NCBI GenBank assembly: GCA_015484845.1
Contig: WFUT01000041.1
Coordinates: 1 to 52,803, forward strand
DNA: 52,803 bases
Source of the DNA: Desulfobulbaceae bacterium
GTDB lineage: Bacteria > Desulfobacterota > Desulfobulbia > Desulfobulbales > Desulfobulbaceae
Direction of reading: 5' to 3'
This document shows positions 9,518 through 25,362 of this stretch, piece by piece. Below the pieces are notes generated by a model that saw only the letters and a program-made list of their open reading frames with translations, made no database searches and was not told the DNA's origin. The position numbers and the translations under genes are program-made. How positions within the stretch are numbered: position 1 is the stretch's first letter; every line of letters starts with the position of its first letter.

Positions 9518-10762
9518 TTACCGGAGAAGGAGCCGTAAGACACCACTCAAGGGCATCCGTCCGCCCCGGTGCCCGCCAGCGGGGGCCGCGTGGCAGAGAC
9601 GGACCGTTACCGTGGGCGAATAATCGGTTATCTCCCCGTTGACCACCGCCCGGACACGCAGGTAATAGGTGGTATCCTCCTTCAAGCCGGAGATGTCGAA
9701 TCCTGTCGTCGCGCCCACGTCCAGGTCATGATAGCCGGGTACAAAGGAGGAGAAATCGGAACTGGTGGAGAGATCGAGCAGATAGGTGTCGGCACCGGCA
9801 AGCCCCTGCCAGCGGGCCCTGAAGCTGTCGGGCAGCATGAATTGCGGCTGCAGGCCCGGCACCTGCAGGAAACCCGTGATGTCGGCCACGTGGATCTCGC
9901 CATCAGCCTCCCAGGCAACGTGGTTCTCACTGATCACGGGATAATGATCGTCGCTCCCGTTGTCCGTCACCCTGGTCAGCCCCTTGTTCCTGCTGTAGAG
10001 AAAGATCTCGCTGTCGGCCCCGTCCCGCCGCGCCAGGACTTCGATCGCCCCTTCCGCGGAACCACTCCTGTTGCAGACAAACCGGTCCGGCGCCTGGCGG
10101 GCCACCGGCGATGCGCTGGCCAGGTCATAGTACCAGAGCGCGACGCTGCCATCGGCCTGCTGCTGCCGCCAAAACACCTTCGAGCCATCGATCCGGGGGT
10201 CACCGGCATCCATGGCCGGATCCGAAATGACCCGGGCACCCTGCTGGCCGCCTGCCTCGTAGAGCATGATCCTGCCGGGATGGTAGGAATCGGTGACAAG
10301 CAGCGATGTCCAGACCACGTGGCCGGAGGCGATCTTCGGGCCAAAGTTGTCACTGTCGTCGGCAGGAGAGATCATCACGCCACCGGCAGGACCGCCTCCG
10401 GAGAGGCTGTGGAGAAAGATCCGGTTGCCGCCGGCAGGATCATGCTTCTGCCAGACCACGACCTCGCCGTCGGTCTGCGGCAGGGTGTCATCACTGTCGT
10501 CGTCGGTGAGCTGGGTCACCTGCAGGCTCTCCAGGTCACAGAGAAAGATCTCCCAATCGGTGTTACCGGAGGTGGCACCGGCAAGGCCGCCCCTGGCCTG
10601 CCAGACCAGGGTCATGCCGTGGAGCATGGGAAAGCTGCTGTCCGAAATCGTGGCAAGTTCGCCGCTGTTCCAGATCTCGGCCGCCCCGGCGTGGTCCATG
10701 GCGGGACCAGCCAGGAGGCAGGCAGCCAGAACGAGTGAGAAGAGGAGCGATCTAGGTTTCAT
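9518..10762 (-). CDS. secreted TolB-like beta-propeller protein with C-terminal fibronectin type III domain
   Basis: A 414-residue exported protein. Residues 1-28 form a signal peptide (MKPRSLLFSLVLAACLLAG ending near AGAAE). Residues 30-300 repeat a blade pattern such as WEIFLCDLESLQVTQLTDD, NRIFLHSLSGG, IMLYEAGG and SEIFLYSRNKGLTRVTDNGSDD, as in TolB/PD40-type propellers. Residues of about 305-395 form an FN3-like domain (FRARWQGLAGADTYLLDLS, then TTYYLRVRAVVNGEITDYS). It lacks a visible anchor or sorting signal and ends in an Arg/Gly-rich tail. It follows the beta-helix gene by 32 bases and is probably cotranscribed. A periplasmic or surface binding role is inferred; no enzymatic motif was seen. 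Confidence 0.75.
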   Translation of the reverse strand: MKPRSLLFSLVLAACLLAGPAMDHAGAAEIWNSGELATISDSSFPMLHGMTLVWQARGGLAGATSGNTDWEIFLCDLESLQVTQLTDDDSDDTLPQTDGEVVVWQKHDPAGGNRIFLHSLSGGGPAGGVMISPADDSDNFGPKIASGHVVWTSLLVTDSYHPGRIMLYEAGGQQGARVISDPAMDAGDPRIDGSKVFWRQQQADGSVALWYYDLASASPVARQAPDRFVCNRSGSAEGAIEVLARRDGADSEIFLYSRNKGLTRVTDNGSDDHYPVISENHVAWEADGEIHVADITGFLQVPGLQPQFMLPDSFRARWQGLAGADTYLLDLSTSSDFSSFVPGYHDLDVGATTGFDISGLKEDTTYYLRVRAVVNGEITDYSPTVTVRLCHAAPAGGHRGGRMPLSGVLRLLLR

Positions 10763-12771: not shown

Positions 12772-13102
12772 GGGAAACTCCTTGTTTCGGTACCTTCCGC
12801 CTGCAACGCGGCAACGGAACCGGTACCAGGCCAGGAAAAGGCCTGTCTCCTTTGAATTACGATTCAGTAAGCTGGATTTCGAGCCATTACCATCCCCGGA
12901 GGGCCCGACAAATACCCCAACACCCTCGCGGACTTTGACAATTTCCTGTATAGCCGCCACGTTACCAGCAGAACAATCGACCGGAGACACCGTGGCCGCC
13001 TGAAATCCCCTCCTTTCCTGTCGTTGTTGATGCAGCTTGCATACCGCCGGAAGGGAAAATCGGACGCCCGGGACATGGCTCTCCCGCGGCACCTGGATGC
13101 AA
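12772..13102. other. leader and intergenic region upstream of the beta-helix gene
   Basis: About 330 bases between the beta-helix start and the terminator of the symporter operon. Apart from the hairpin at 12789-12827 I see no promoter that stands out and no small gene. I looked for c-di-GMP riboswitch cores here and did not find them. Confidence 0.5.
12789..12827 (-). promoter_or_regulatory. hairpin in the leader of the beta-helix gene
   Basis: On the transcribed strand GGTACC-GG-TTCCG pairs with CGGAA-GGTACC around a 15-base loop, with a GG bulge. It ends about 17 bases before the start codon, close to the AAGGAG site, so it could affect translation or mRNA stability. No U-run follows and it matches no riboswitch I recognise. 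Confidence 0.45.
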
Positions 13103-16797: not shown

Positions 16798-18771
16798 TCA
16801 GACCACCGGAAACATGAGCTTCAGGACCGCGTGCAGCCGGTCAATCACCTCGAAGGCGTCCCGGAGCATGCGTTTTTCCAGGTCAGAGAGCTGGCCCGGG
16901 TCAATATAGTTGTCCGGTTCCTCGCCCCTGTCGATCTGGTTGAGCTGGTGGACGATGCGAAGCTGCATCTGCATCTCGTAGGCGGCATGGGCAGTTGACC
17001 AGAGATCGCCGGAGATATGGCCCTCGTCGGCCAGGACGTGAAGGCGGGCCAGGGTGTTTGTTTCATTGACATTATGCCGGAGGGCCAGGATCCTGGCAAA
17101 GTTGACGAACGGTGCCAGGCCCTGGTGTTTGATATCGAGCTTGTTGCGGTGCTCGCCGTTCTTCTCGACGATGAAGTTCTTGAAAAAGGAGAGCGGTGCC
17201 CGGCTGGCCATGCATTCCCGCGCCATGTGCAGGAGGTAGATCTCCTGCCGGCCGGTGATCCGGTTGAGATGGGCCCGCAGCTCGTCGGCAAGAGCGGTCC
17301 TGCCGAATCCGGCCCGGAAGTCGAAAAATATGGTGGCGTTGAGCAGCTCCCGGGGCTCCGGCGTCTCGACCCAGGAGGAAAAGTACTCCTTCCAGACCGA
17401 CAAAGGCTGGCACCAGCGGGGGTTGACGGCCATGATCTCGCCGGGGCAGAGCGGATAGCCGCACTTGACCAGGTGATCGATGGCCTGGCGGGCGAAGCGG
17501 CCGAAGTACTCCTCGGCCGCGCGCCGCTCGCTGTCACTGCCGGGATCGGCATAGATGATGGCGTTGTCCTGGTCGGTCTTGAAGGTCTGCTCCCTGCGCC
17601 CCTCGCTGCCCAGCAGGAGCCAGCAGTACTCCAGGGGCGGCGGCCCCATCTCTTCCTCGAGCAGGGTCAGGAGACGGGTCAGGATGTGGTCATTGAGAAT
17701 GGAGATCATGCGGGCGATGTTGGAGGCCTTGGCGCCCTCGATGACCAGGTTGCGGATCATGTCCGGAATCCGGCGCGACAGGGGATAGAGACCGTCCATG
17801 GTGCGCTGCTTACCGATCTCCTTGAACAGGAGATAGGGGGAGTTCCCCTGCAGGAGCATGATGTCATGGGAGGTCACCACGCCCACCACCTGGCCCTTCT
17901 GCTCCACGGCCAGGTGATGGATACCGCTGGACATCATCGTGAGCAGGGCGTCGAAACAGACGGCCCGGGACAGGACCCGGATCACGGGCTGGGACATGAT
18001 GCGCGCAACCGGCTCACTGTAGTCGAGCCCGGCGGCGATCACCTTGTTGCGCAGGTCACGGTCCGTGACGATGCCGATGATCTCCCGGCTCTCCCCGGGC
18101 CGGTGCACCAGGATGGAGCCGATCCTGAACTCGGCCATGGCCCGGGCCGCCTCCTGGATGGTGGCATCGGCGGGCAGGGCACGGGGCTTCTGCTTGACCA
18201 GGTCGCCAACCTGCAGCGAGAAGAGCAGCAGGTCCTCGTCGCTGCGCCGCCCCATCCGGTGCCGGCGCAGCTCGGTGTAGGCGGTGTTGACGATCTTTTC
18301 CGAGAAGTTCTTCAGGTAGTACTGGGCAAAACCGGGCTGGTTCTCGATCAGGTCGAGGAAATCCTCGCGCGGCAGGAGGAAACAGAAGGTGTCCTCCACC
18401 GTCTCCACGTTCAGGTTGGCCGGCGTGTTGCGGATGATCGGCAGGGCGCCGACAGAGGACCCTTCGCCCCGGTAATCCTTGAGGGTGACCTCGCCCTCGT
18501 CATCGACGATGTAGGACCTGACCCCGCCCTGCTGGATCAGGAAAAGATGGGTAAGCTCGGTCTCGCCCGCGGTCAAAAGCCGGGTTCCACGAGGATAGAA
18601 ATCGACCCGGACGTGGCGGGCAATCTGCCTGAGCTTTTCCTCGGCCAGTTCGTTAAACGGCATGATGTTGCGAAGGAAATCGACCACCACCTCCGGTGGC
18701 GCCGCCTGCGAGACCCCCCTGCCCGGACCCTGTGCCGGGGAAGGGCCCTTTTTGCCGGACAATTGCATCAT
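16798..18771 (-). CDS. cNMP-binding / CBS / DUF294 nucleotidyltransferase-like signalling protein
   Basis: A 657-residue soluble protein. A cyclic-nucleotide-binding-like domain occupies about 30-155 (MPFNELAEEKLRQIARHVRV, then YPRGTRLLTAGETELTHLFLI). Two CBS motifs follow at about 195-320 (GSILVHRPGESREIIGIVTDRDL and HHLAVEQKGQVVGVVTSHDIM). A DUF294 nucleotidyltransferase-like domain comes next, with LLGSEGRREQTFKTDQDNA, and a helical C-terminal domain ends the protein. Similar proteins regulate or accompany acs and acetate transport; an adenine-nucleotide energy sensor is plausible. GGAG lies just before two consecutive ATGs, and the exact first Met is uncertain by one codon. It is probably transcribed separately from acs, because a terminator stands between them. 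Confidence 0.88.
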   Translation of the reverse strand: MMQLSGKKGPSPAQGPGRGVSQAAPPEVVVDFLRNIMPFNELAEEKLRQIARHVRVDFYPRGTRLLTAGETELTHLFLIQQGGVRSYIVDDEGEVTLKDYRGEGSSVGALPIIRNTPANLNVETVEDTFCFLLPREDFLDLIENQPGFAQYYLKNFSEKIVNTAYTELRRHRMGRRSDEDLLLFSLQVGDLVKQKPRALPADATIQEAARAMAEFRIGSILVHRPGESREIIGIVTDRDLRNKVIAAGLDYSEPVARIMSQPVIRVLSRAVCFDALLTMMSSGIHHLAVEQKGQVVGVVTSHDIMLLQGNSPYLLFKEIGKQRTMDGLYPLSRRIPDMIRNLVIEGAKASNIARMISILNDHILTRLLTLLEEEMGPPPLEYCWLLLGSEGRREQTFKTDQDNAIIYADPGSDSERRAAEEYFGRFARQAIDHLVKCGYPLCPGEIMAVNPRWCQPLSVWKEYFSSWVETPEPRELLNATIFFDFRAGFGRTALADELRAHLNRITGRQEIYLLHMARECMASRAPLSFFKNFIVEKNGEHRNKLDIKHQGLAPFVNFARILALRHNVNETNTLARLHVLADEGHISGDLWSTAHAAYEMQMQLRIVHQLNQIDRGEEPDNYIDPGQLSDLEKRMLRDAFEVIDRLHAVLKLMFPVV

Positions 18772-18790
18772 CGTGCTCCATGGTATCAGA

Positions 18791-18811
18791 AGACAAGAGA
18801 CAGGAGACAGG
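18791..18811. repeat. heptamer-phased short tandem repeat upstream of the DUF294 gene
   Basis: Three contiguous 7-base units, AGACAAG, AGACAGG and AGACAGG, lie about 20 bases upstream of the DUF294 start codon. Copy number variation here would alter the leader length. Compare the array at 8397-8425 in an equivalent position. Confidence 0.7.
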
Positions 18812-18922
18812 GGCCGATAGCCGGATCAGCCTGCGCCTGCGACCGGGTTGAGGGGCAATGGCCCCCTTCTCACTCCCCATCGGGACGGTGAACTGAACAT
18901 GCGGCCCATCCTGCCGGTGTCA

Positions 18923-18966
18923 GAAAACAAAGCAGGCAGGCCACCCTGCCGGGTGCGCCTGCCTGC
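18923..18966 (-). terminator. intrinsic terminator of acs
   Basis: On the minus strand GCAGGCAGGC pairs with GCCTGCCTGC around a 15-base loop (which itself contains a small CCC/GGG stem), followed by TTTGTTTTC. It lies 48 bases after the acs stop codon and separates acs from the DUF294 gene. Confidence 0.88.
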
Positions 18967-19013
18967 CGTTATCGTCGTCGTGACGGGTGTATGCATCCCT
19001 TCACGTGGTCACA

Positions 19014-21002
<1,989 letters not shown>

Positions 21003-21769: not shown

Positions 21770-22071
21770 TCCCGCTTTCCGGCCCTGTTATGATTGACGA
21801 ATCAGCAATATTAGAGTTTAATTAAATACTGACCATCCGCCCGCTGCCCGAATCCCGCAACCGGCGCATTCGTCAAAGAGGCGGGACCCCGGGGCCGCAG
21901 GGGCAGGGGCCGCCTTGCCGGCACCGATGTGCCGGCCATGGCGAACGACAAGAACAGGGGCGGACAGGGGCCATCTCCCGTCATTGCCGCCACAGCGAAA
22001 ACCGGGCCGGTTGCTGTCCCACGAGCCCCTGTTGCTCCGACAACTCCAAGCACACACCAGGGGAAAGGACC
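21770..22071. other. promoter-containing intergenic region before the ArsR-family operon
   Basis: About 300 bases. It carries a good sigma-70 promoter with an overlapping AT-rich dyad at 21794-21830. The remaining 240 bases, up to the regulator start, form a GC-rich leader in which no small gene or riboswitch was recognised. Confidence 0.6.
21794..21830 (+). promoter_or_regulatory. sigma-70 promoter with overlapping AT-rich dyad (candidate operator)
   Basis: TTGACG (21794-21799), a 17-base spacer, and TTTAAT (21817-21822). The perfect palindrome TTTAATTAAA (21817-21826) and an imperfect extension AGAGTTTAATTAAATACT overlap the -10. ArsR-family repressors bind AT-rich dyads over their own promoters, so this is a candidate autoregulatory operator for the gene starting at 22072. 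Confidence 0.6.
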
Positions 22072-22410
22072 ATGCACACCCGGGAGGTAGATGAGCTGGC
22101 CGGCCTGCTCAAGGCCATGTCGCACCCGATCCGACTGAAGATCCTCTGCCTGCTCCAGGACAGCGAACTCTCGGTCTCGAGCATCCGGGAACAGGTCAAG
22201 ACCACCAACGCCAACATCTCGCAGCATCTCAACGTCCTGCGCAACCAGGGGATCATCGATTTCCGCAGGGATGCCAACTTCATCTACAACCGGATCAGCG
22301 ATCGCCGGATCATTGAACTGATCAGTACCCTGCAGCAGCTGTTCTGTACGGGCAAGCCGTCCGACAGCGGCCATCACCGGCACCACGCCCCGGCCGGAGA
22401 GCAGCGATGA
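22072..22410 (+). CDS. ArsR-family regulator with SqrR/BigR-like cysteine pair
   Basis: A 112-residue winged-helix repressor. The recognition region is VKTTNANISQHLNVLRNQGIIDFRRDANFIYNRI, an ArsR/SmtB pattern. It lacks the metal-site ELCVCDL motif of ArsR/SmtB. Instead it has two cysteines, Cys26 in RLKILCLLQDSE and Cys92 in LISTLQQLFC, separated by 66 residues. That is the separation of the redox pair in SqrR (41/107) and BigR (42/108), which form a tetrasulfide or disulfide with reactive sulfur species and then leave DNA. A His/Ser-rich tail follows. GGGGAAAGG precedes the ATG. Its stop overlaps the transporter start (ATGA), so it is coupled to that gene. The sulfur-sensing role is inference. 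Confidence 0.85.
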   Translation: MHTREVDELAGLLKAMSHPIRLKILCLLQDSELSVSSIREQVKTTNANISQHLNVLRNQGIIDFRRDANFIYNRISDRRIIELISTLQQLFCTGKPSDSGHHRHHAPAGEQR

Positions 22411-25034
22411 CGCCAGGCGCCCTGGTCCGCCTCGCCCTCGACCGCCCCGGCCTGGTCATGGTCCTGGTCCTGGCCTGGACCCTGCTCACCGGTGCGCTCG
22501 CCGTCAGGGTCCGGCCGGACGCCGATCCCGGCGCCATGCTGCCGGCGGATGCATTCGCCAGGCACTTCAACGAGCAGACCAGGAAGGAGTTCAACCTGCA
22601 TGGCGTCGTGGTTCTCGGTGTGGTCAATGACCGGGACAGGAACGGGGTCTTCAATCCCGGGACCCTGAAGAAGATCCTCGCCCTGAGCCGGTTTGCCGCC
22701 ACCCTCCGTGACCCGAAAAGGCCGGAGCGCCGGGTCATTGCCAGTGACATGGTGGCCCCGGACAGCGTGGACCTGGTGGAGCCGGCCGGCCTGGGCAAGG
22801 TCCGCTTCTCCCTCCTGATGCCAAAGGCCCCCGCCACCCGGGCGCAGGCCGTGGCCATCCGGGACAGGGCCCTGGCCGATCCGCTGCTCAGGGGAACGCT
22901 GGTCTCGGCGGACGGGCGGGCCATGGCCATCTCCATCCCGGTCAGCAGAACGGATATTGCCCGCCGGGTGGGTCTCGCCCTGGAGGCGAAGATCAGGGAA
23001 CTCGGCACCGGCAGCGACCGCTTCTATATCAGCGGCCTGCCGCTGGTCGAGGACACCTTTGCCACCGACCTCCTGCTCCAGCCCGCCATCATGGCACTGC
23101 CGGTCCTGCTGCTGCTCTTTCTGCTCCTCTACCTGCTCTTCAGGAGGATCCGGCTCGTGGTGCCGCCCCTGTTGGTCGCCACGGCGACCGTACTCTCCAC
23201 CATGGGACTCTTCATCGGCGCGGGCAACGGCCTGCAGGTCATCAGCGTCATGATCCCCGTCTTTCTCGCGCCCGTGGCACTGGCAGGTCCGCTCCGCCTC
23301 CTGTCCGGGCTCTCCGCTCTCCCCGGCCGGGATGGTGACCGGCGCCGGGACGTGGAGCAGGTGATGGCCGACCGCCTCACCCCCATGCTGCGCACCGCGC
23401 TCACCTCGGCGGCCGGCTTCGCCTCCCTGGTCCTGTTCCCTGTCCCTGCCGTCAGGATGTTCGGCCTCTTCATGGCCTTCGGCATCATGCTCGCCTGGCT
23501 GCTGACCATTGTCATTATCCCTGCCGCCATCATGCTGACGCGGAAAGAGGCCGGCAACAGTGGCAGCTCCCCCGTGGCCGCCGACAGCCTGCCCATCAAC
23601 CGTTGCCTTCTCTGGACCGGCCGCACCGCCGCCGCCCGTCCCTGGCTGGTCATCGGCTGCAGCCTGGGCGTGGCGGCAGTGGCCGGCATCGGCATCCTCC
23701 TGGTCCGGGTCAACGACAACCCGGTCCGATGGTTCGGCCGCAACCAGCCGGTCCGCGTGGCGGACAGGATACTCAACAGCCGCTTTGCCGGTACCTGGCA
23801 GGCATACCTCGTCCTCCGGGGCGAGGGCCCGCCCATGACCCTGGACCAGGCCGCCGACTGGCTGCGCAACGAACTGGATGACAAGCTCATCGACGTGCCG
23901 GTGATCCGCCAGAAGGCACTGGCAGAGATCGCCGAGGCCGCGGCCGAAAGCGAAAATCCCGCCGCCATGGCCAGGCGGCTGGAAAAATCATGGACCCGGG
24001 AGATCAGGCGGCTGCAGCCCAACGACGCCGTGGGCTATGACCGCTGGTCCACGGCCCTGGACACCCTGGACCGGCTGCGTAACCAGGAGGAGGTCTTCAA
24101 GCGGCCCGACGTGCTCCGCTACATCGACGGCCTGCAGCGCCACCTGGAAAACCTGGACACGGTGGGCAGCAGCTACTCGCTGGTCGCACTGGTCAAGATG
24201 GCGCACCAGGCACTGCTGGAGGGGGACCGGCGCTACTTTTCGATCCCGGACACGGTCAATGCCGTGGCCCAGGCCCTGGATACCTACCGCCAGAGCCACA
24301 GGCCCGACCGGATCCGGCACCTGGTGACCAGGAACTACAGCCGGGCCAACATCGACGTCCGGCTCAGGAGCGGCAACAGCAGGGACATGGCACGGCTGGC
24401 CCGGGACACGGACAGCTACTTTGCCGCCAACCCGCCACCCGTCCGCCTGCGACATGACTGGGCCGGCCCCGCCTTTCTCCACGCCGCCTGGCAGCAACGG
24501 CTGACAACCGGCATGCTCAGGTCCCTGCTTCTCGGCTGCATCACCGTCTTTCTCGCCGCGACCCTGTTTTTCCGTTCCCCGGCCTGGGGAGCCCTGGCCC
24601 TGGTGCCGCTTGCCTGCAGCATCGGCATCACATCCGCCATGATCGGGTTCTCTGGCAGCGACTTCAATGTGCCCCTGGCGGCGCTCTCCCTGCTGCCCCT
24701 GGGCCTGGCCGTTGACGGCGGGATGCACTTTCTCCAGGAGGCCCGGCAGACCATGCAGCGACCCGGCGACTGGCAGGAGAGCGTCTCTGCCCTGGGCCGG
24801 GGAACGGTACGGGTCATGGGCCGCACGGGTATCGCTGTCGCGGCCATGGGCACGCCGCTGCTCTTCTCGCCCCTGGTCCCTTTCCGCAGCGCTGCCCTGA
24901 TGCTGGCCTCCACCGCCCTCTGCTCGGGCCTGGCCATCCTCTGGGTCCTGCCGGCGCTGCTGAGCCTCCTGCGGACGAGGCTGTTCAGGGACATTGCCAT
25001 GCAAGAAACCGTGGCAGAGGATCAAGGCACATAA
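22407..25034 (+). CDS. MMPL/RND-superfamily transporter
   Basis: An 875-residue inner-membrane transporter with the duplicated RND/MMPL layout. An N-terminal helix (LVMVLVLAWTLLTGALAV) is followed by a large periplasmic domain (about 40-220), a helix bundle at about 225-375 (AIMALPVLLLLFLLLYLLF through LAWLLTIVIIPAAIML), then a second half with a helix near 412-432, a second periplasmic domain, and helices from about 705 to 865. ISGLPLVEDTFATDLL before the second bundle is typical of MMPL members. Such proteins export lipids, sterol-like molecules or other hydrophobic compounds using the proton gradient. It overlaps the regulator gene by four bases. No membrane-fusion or outer-membrane partner is present. 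The substrate is unknown. Confidence 0.85.
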   Translation: MTPGALVRLALDRPGLVMVLVLAWTLLTGALAVRVRPDADPGAMLPADAFARHFNEQTRKEFNLHGVVVLGVVNDRDRNGVFNPGTLKKILALSRFAATLRDPKRPERRVIASDMVAPDSVDLVEPAGLGKVRFSLLMPKAPATRAQAVAIRDRALADPLLRGTLVSADGRAMAISIPVSRTDIARRVGLALEAKIRELGTGSDRFYISGLPLVEDTFATDLLLQPAIMALPVLLLLFLLLYLLFRRIRLVVPPLLVATATVLSTMGLFIGAGNGLQVISVMIPVFLAPVALAGPLRLLSGLSALPGRDGDRRRDVEQVMADRLTPMLRTALTSAAGFASLVLFPVPAVRMFGLFMAFGIMLAWLLTIVIIPAAIMLTRKEAGNSGSSPVAADSLPINRCLLWTGRTAAARPWLVIGCSLGVAAVAGIGILLVRVNDNPVRWFGRNQPVRVADRILNSRFAGTWQAYLVLRGEGPPMTLDQAADWLRNELDDKLIDVPVIRQKALAEIAEAAAESENPAAMARRLEKSWTREIRRLQPNDAVGYDRWSTALDTLDRLRNQEEVFKRPDVLRYIDGLQRHLENLDTVGSSYSLVALVKMAHQALLEGDRRYFSIPDTVNAVAQALDTYRQSHRPDRIRHLVTRNYSRANIDVRLRSGNSRDMARLARDTDSYFAANPPPVRLRHDWAGPAFLHAAWQQRLTTGMLRSLLLGCITVFLAATLFFRSPAWGALALVPLACSIGITSAMIGFSGSDFNVPLAALSLLPLGLAVDGGMHFLQEARQTMQRPGDWQESVSALGRGTVRVMGRTGIAVAAMGTPLLFSPLVPFRSAALMLASTALCSGLAILWVLPALLSLLRTRLFRDIAMQETVAEDQGT

Positions 25035-25146
25035 ATCGCGGCCGGGCATGCGCCAGGCCCCGGAAGAGGTGGCGCAGATGCCGGCCCGGCACGGCAGGTT
25101 CAACAATATACTTTTAATATCAACAAATTACGGAAGGAGAAATATC

Positions 25147-25362
25147 ATGGTTGTCAACGACTGGGTTCATGTCTTTGCCGGCTTCTTTATCCTGATCAGC
25201 CTTGCCCTGGGGGTCGACACCCCGGCCAACCCCCTCTTTGTCAGCCGCTACTGGCTGTTTTTCACCGCCTTTGTCGGCGCCAACCTCTTCCAGTACGGCT
25301 TCACCGGTTTCTGCCCCCTGGCCATCATCCTGAAGAAACTCGGGGTACCGGAATCGAAATAA
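25147..25362 (+). CDS. DUF2892 (YgaP-type) small membrane protein
   Basis: A 71-residue protein, MVVNDWVHVFAGFFILISLA at the start, with two membrane helices; the second contains LFFTAFVGANLFQYGFTGFCPL, the conserved DUF2892 end with the QYGFTGFCPLAIIL cysteine motif. In E. coli YgaP this domain is fused to a rhodanese and is regulated by the ArsR-type YgaV; BigR operons also carry a small DUF2892 protein. Here it follows the MMPL gene by 112 bases, with AAGGAGAAATATC before the ATG. It supports a sulfur-related role for the operon. No rhodanese or persulfide dioxygenase gene is in the window. Confidence 0.85.
   Translation: MVVNDWVHVFAGFFILISLALGVDTPANPLFVSRYWLFFTAFVGANLFQYGFTGFCPLAIILKKLGVPESK

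Follow-up and report, generated by a model that had tools for sequence, protein, structure and literature searches.

The locus described here raises two questions: which signal is read by an ArsR-family regulator that carries a pair of cysteines, and what is the role of the membrane proteins encoded behind it? Three genes were found on the forward strand of the window (the whole stretch of 52,803 nucleotides that was analyzed, from a member of the Desulfobulbaceae), encoding an ArsR-family regulator, an MMPL-family membrane protein, and a YgaP-like_TM/DUF2892 protein (Table 1). With moderate confidence, we read them as a thiol-switched, self-repressing operon of which DUF2892 is the main output and in which an MMPL cassette has been dismantled in this genus. 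The MMPL frame overlaps the stop codon of the regulator gene via ATGA, and the DUF2892 gene has its conserved start at the ATG of 25147 (71 aa), whereas the ORF list begins it at 24994. As the first-pass annotation had stated, neither a rhodanese nor a dioxygenase is encoded among the operon genes; 12 rhodanese-domain matches lie elsewhere in the same genome. Genes for an acetyl-CoA synthetase and a CBS-domain protein (16798-21002 of the window, minus strand) lie upstream, and they adjoin the regulator gene in many Desulfobulbales loci.

Table 1. Features of the locus, with positions in the window and the evidence for each.
Feature	Position	Strand	Evidence
-35-like hexamer TTGACG	21794..21799	+	17 nt 5' of TTTAAT; TTKACA kept at a near-fixed distance before the operator in orthologous loci
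Candidate operator AGAGTTTAATTAAATACT, near-palindrome, 18 bp	21813..21830	.	Recurrence 5' of orthologues; sole exact match in the genome
-10-like hexamer TTTAAT, within the palindrome	21817..21822	+	Sequence and spacing
ArsR-family regulator, 112 aa, C26 (alpha2) and C92 (alpha5)	22072..22410	+	PF01022 50.6 bits; alignments; tree; Cys conservation
MMPL-family membrane protein, TM4 Asp lost	22407..25034	+	PF03176 49 bits; motif comparison; dN/dS; TM/periplasmic ratio
DUF2892/YgaP-like_TM protein, 71 aa, Cys56-Pro57	25147..25362	+	PF11127; conserved start and Cys-Pro in 29 relatives; strongest purifying selection of the operon

The regulator has just two cysteines, C26 (within KILCLLQD) and C92, which are 66 residues apart; there is no Cys between residues 27 and 91, hence no CXC in alpha3. 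By phmmer alignment, the two residues coincide with the cysteines that sense in BigR (3pqj), SqrR (6o8k-o), and HlyU (4k2e), and with the pair of YgaV (3cuo) that corresponds to them, so that the SqrR/BigR-like pair proposed from the sequence at first is confirmed, as it is by the orthologues. Position 26 is Cys in 78 and position 92 in 80 of 81 orthologues, a set made up of the window and 80 sequences collected from whole genomes by protein similarity, with no Cys-containing pattern; the locus set obtained with a Cys26-containing search pattern was left out of the count for that position. Because the pair is nearly invariant in orthologues fetched in this way, it is not a matter of chance. 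In a second copy of the regulator (L195 in genome G061), both sensing cysteines were lost together, to Y and F, as if this copy had been freed from sensing. An AlphaFold2 model of the regulator (32 sequences) reached a mean pLDDT of 63 and was not used for fold searches or Cys distances. Matches to the regulator were found in 164 of 194 Desulfobulbales genomes, mostly at 58-75% identity, and in only 14 of 148 sampled genomes from the rest of the phylum; outside the order, a single family has members at ~50% identity.

A maximum-likelihood tree that included named references gave the regulator group as an order-wide subfamily of its own (99/99) on the side of SqrR, BigR, HlyU, YgaV, and their relatives, none of which was singled out as its closest. 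A grouping with metal sensors, the outcome that would have spoken against the original proposal, was not obtained: SmtB, CadC, CzrA, ZiaR, and ArsR, together with four further ArsR proteins that this genome encodes, make up a separate clade, also at 99/99. All 81 orthologues gave higher scores against a panel from the persulfide-sensor side than against metal sensors. Among the members found, identity was highest, at ~42-44%, with BigR of S. meliloti and a Bradyrhizobium regulator whose gene adjoins a rhodanese. Cluster 4 of the published ArsR sequence similarity network (SSN), with its alpha2/alpha5 cysteines, contains every known persulfide sensor, and its genes lie near those for sulfurtransferases, rhodaneses, and inorganic sulfur transporters (PMC10509353). 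No sulfurtransferase, rhodanese, or sulfur transporter gene stands beside the regulator in this operon, although such neighbors are a tendency of the cluster and do not strictly define it. The best approximate SSN alignment score was 21.6, from a small reference panel with some truncated members, against a membership threshold of 22 (PMC10509353), and the BigR equivalog model of NCBIfam (NF040642) gave 78.4 bits, short of its cut-off of 155. Thus the regulator shares with SqrR, BigR, HlyU, and YgaV the cysteine pair at aligned positions and the side of the tree, and differs from them in being a subfamily of its own, in its AT-rich palindrome, and in its operon without rhodanese, dioxygenase, or sulfur transporter. 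Its anatomy is that of the persulfide-sensor type, near the BigR family and formally outside it, and the sequence suggests that it would sense persulfide. The literature searched contains no description of ArsR sensors of the persulfide type from Desulfobulbales.

Upstream regions of the orthologous genes repeatedly contain an AT-rich palindrome, AGTATTTAATTAAATACT, 45 of the 81 scoring above the 99th percentile of dinucleotide shuffles. Among 77 distinct sequences, a TTGACA/TTTACA hexamer (at least a 5/6 match) precedes TTTAAT by 15 nt in 36, by 16 nt in 12, and by 17 nt in 3. A candidate operator within the proposed region 21794-21830 is the recurrent palindrome at 21813-21830, with its conserved -35 geometry, at which the regulator is predicted to bind. 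A stricter promoter scan did not report the hexamer at 21794, since TTTAAT has no A at position 2. The operator of the window is the sole exact match in its genome, and across 49 genomes of the family all four exact matches precede the regulator gene, indicating that the protein probably represses its own operon and no other. Because training of the operator matrix used the same related sequences, this genome-wide exclusivity is the stronger argument. The overlap of operator and -10 hexamer predicts autorepression of a single operon, through DNA binding by the regulator that would block its own promoter.

The motif of the SqrR operator is ATTC-N8-GAAT (quoted in PMC9774250); it has no match near the operon, and the whole window holds one match with 1 mismatch, at 12862. 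A second copy of the palindrome with 2 mismatches (L157, G000:C141:4951-4968) was considered as a regulon site, as it lies just 5' of an ORF resembling a molybdopterin oxidoreductase with a twin-arginine signal. We treat it as chance, because it has no TTKACA hexamer in front and because the site is absent from two congeneric genomes. The leader from operator to start codon is GC-rich and ~240 nt long in the window (21831-22071), against ~38 nt in locus L036; a mobile element was considered as its origin and rejected, the stretch at 21940-22060 being single copy in the genome. In the congeneric locus L037, a MITE- or REP-like element of ~100 nt sits between the operator and the regulator start, roughly 25-150 nt 5' of position 10001, with terminal inverted repeats GTAAAAGTTCAGCAG...CTGCTGAACTTTTAC and flanking direct repeats CACGAGGAAG.

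Among 78 loci with downstream sequence, a DUF2892 gene starts within 400 nt 3' of the regulator in 32 and an MMPL gene within 300 nt in 23. The usual MMPL arrangement is MMPL, LolA-like, outer-membrane protein, and DUF2892, the intermediate genes encoding a LolA_like protein (PF17131) and then a putative outer-membrane protein that matches no Pfam family. Of the 13 MMPL loci whose sequence extends for 5 kb or more, 8 reached a DUF2892 gene within 5.5 kb. Taking the direct and the long loci together, DUF2892 is the most constant partner of the regulator, and the expectation that it would be a recurrent neighbor of BigR/YgaV-type regulators holds in this order. The active RND/MMPL exporter that the first-pass annotation had named as the coupled gene does not hold up in the same way, the MMPL cassette being an alternative arrangement. 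The DUF2892 protein (PF11127, 36.5 bits; cut-off 25.3) is alone of its family in this genome, and all 29 relatives that were aligned share its Cys56-Pro57. In E. coli ygaVP, the gene that comes after a BigR-type regulator likewise encodes the YgaP transmembrane domain, and the regulator represses itself (PMC9774250). However, YgaP also has a rhodanese domain, while here the transmembrane protein stands alone, and the solved E. coli domain (2mpn) has no Cys-Pro at the site aligned with the invariant one. No paper that links DUF2892 with ArsR or YgaP was found in the literature searched. In loci L101 and L115, a fused ATP-sulfurylase/APS-kinase gene lies directly 3' of the orthologous regulator, a link to sulfate activation.

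The MMPL protein of the window (49 bits against a PF03176 cut-off of 20.5) has lost a residue that intact relatives keep. Relatives carry VVDSIHILSEF in TM4 and LAVDFAIHFL in TM10, which we take to be the equivalents of the Asp-Tyr pairs of MmpL3; in the window, TM4 reads VALAGPLRLL, with Asp replaced by Gly, and the TM10 Asp is kept. In MmpL3, paired Asp residues in the middle of the membrane domain, in Asp-Tyr pairs, form the proton path (PMC10466384). Where the DUF2892 gene comes immediately after MMPL, with no LolA-like or outer-membrane genes, the TM4 Asp was lost in each of the five loci (G, A, N, N, A); among 25 other distinct MMPLs, it was lost in one. Three of the five loci come from one genus, so that the independent losses are few, probably three. 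The LolA-like and outer-membrane genes are missing from the locus in the genus of the window, whose own genome (97% complete) contains no LolA_like protein. Nor does this genome hold a second copy of this MMPL, so that redundancy with an intact copy was rejected as an explanation. The intact cassettes of relatives keep the paired Asp motifs and the LolA-like partner, and belong to the same MMPL family as HAE3/HpnN-like proteins; the window protein falls below the cut-offs of the HAE3/HpnN models.

Constraint on the MMPL protein is weak in the same genus, and regulator and DUF2892 remain constrained. By pairwise Nei-Gojobori estimates, which are rough, within-genus dN/dS was 0.42-0.63 for MMPL, 0.13-0.19 for the ArsR regulator, 0.03-0.08 for DUF2892, and 0.05-0.07 for acetyl-CoA synthetase; MMPL is not a generally fast-evolving family, other MMPL pairs giving 0.06-0.18. 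With domain boundaries estimated from hydropathy, the ratio of membrane to periplasmic dN was 1.9-2.1 within the genus, inverted relative to the 0.35-0.72 of Asp-bearing pairs; Asp-less proteins of other lineages gave 1.0-1.2 (pairs with L088) and 0.64-0.68 (pairs with L057). The frame is open in three species (871-881 aa), and the gene is therefore not simply a pseudogene. Most likely, the window protein has lost proton-driven transport and kept its periplasmic domains; some function may remain, and it would probably be that of these domains. We would advance only tentatively the full proposal, that MMPL has turned into a non-energised, membrane-anchored periplasmic protein which, with relay, membrane constraint, and partners gone, is still under persulfide control beside DUF2892.

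Could the MMPL protein nevertheless be the point of the operon, an active exporter, driven by the persulfide sensor, that clears a sulfur-reactive lipid or product and tolerates the change in TM4? The open frame, the kept TM10 Asp, the constrained periplasmic domains, the co-transcription implied by the ATGA overlap, and the intact cassettes tied to the same regulator in other genera speak for it. However, the loss of the TM4 Asp, the membrane domain as the region of weakest constraint, and the missing LolA-like and outer-membrane partners, the former absent genome-wide, lead us to reject the word exporter for this genome, contrary to the first-pass annotation, and to consider such activity improbable.

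As for the signal, two conserved thiols denote only thiol chemistry, and the operon has no sulfur enzyme, so that the same operator and operon logic would also suit a dithiol switch that forms a disulfide upon exposure to oxidants or electrophiles or loss of anoxia. Desulfobulbales are anaerobes, for which exposure to oxygen is a plausible stress. We nonetheless consider this rather unlikely, because HlyU, whose alpha2/alpha5 pair is the same, reportedly reacts with persulfides and not with H2O2 or GSSG, and the peroxide sensor RexT uses another Cys pair (alpha3) and belongs to another cluster (PMC10509353). A metal or metalloid sensor, aided by a His-rich tail and governing membrane genes for metal tolerance, is very improbable. 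The regulator does exceed the cut-off of a generic NCBIfam metalloregulator model (78.3 against 55), and its tail contains GHHRHH; yet it stands outside the metal and arsenic clade, alpha3 is without CXC, no metal transporter is encoded in the operon, and nearly all orthologues lack the tail. The tail itself (SGHHRHH, within 22360-22410) has His counterparts in L036 and L037. Oxidant and metal signals are thus less likely than persulfide.

The persulfide-responsive operon that we prefer would work as follows. The reduced dimer, with C26 in alpha2 and C92 in alpha5, would bind the palindrome and block its own operon. A rise in sulfane sulfur or persulfide would then, judging from homology to SqrR and HlyU, join C26 and C92 by a polysulfide bridge and release the repressor. 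The main output would be the small DUF2892 membrane protein with its Cys-Pro, and our guess is that it has a part at the membrane in the handling of reactive sulfur. Other genera would express, in addition, the cassette of MMPL, LolA-like, and outer-membrane proteins, which probably carries a hydrophobic molecule across the envelope; in the genus of the window the cassette appears dismantled, and what is left of it is most likely the MMPL protein with its periplasmic domains and without proton-driven transport. The missed BigR equivalog, the SSN score just under 22, the operon without a persulfide enzyme, the His tail that could bind metal, and the still open MMPL frame weaken this reading.

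Coupling of such a regulator to an MMPL/RND protein, which had been suggested as a distinct version of the operon, is not unique, for on a Salinivibrio plasmid (L216) a BigR-like regulator already has DUF2892 and an RND permease as neighbors. There, the permease is a large efflux-type subunit of ~1100 aa, DUF2892 has diverged, and the regulator sits between DUF2892 with an additional FAD-dependent oxidoreductase on one side and the permease on the other. The operon as a whole would add a further form to a known type of sensor, and its MMPL is probably de-energised.

The persulfide-sensor type of ArsR protein would thereby be extended to a whole order of sulfur-metabolising bacteria, with a defined candidate operator now on hand for testing. 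DUF2892 is now tied to a regulator as its constant output gene. The loci also form a graded series, in which MMPL loses its partners, its relay residue, and then the constraint on its membrane domain, and with this series one can test what the periplasmic domains that remain are for.
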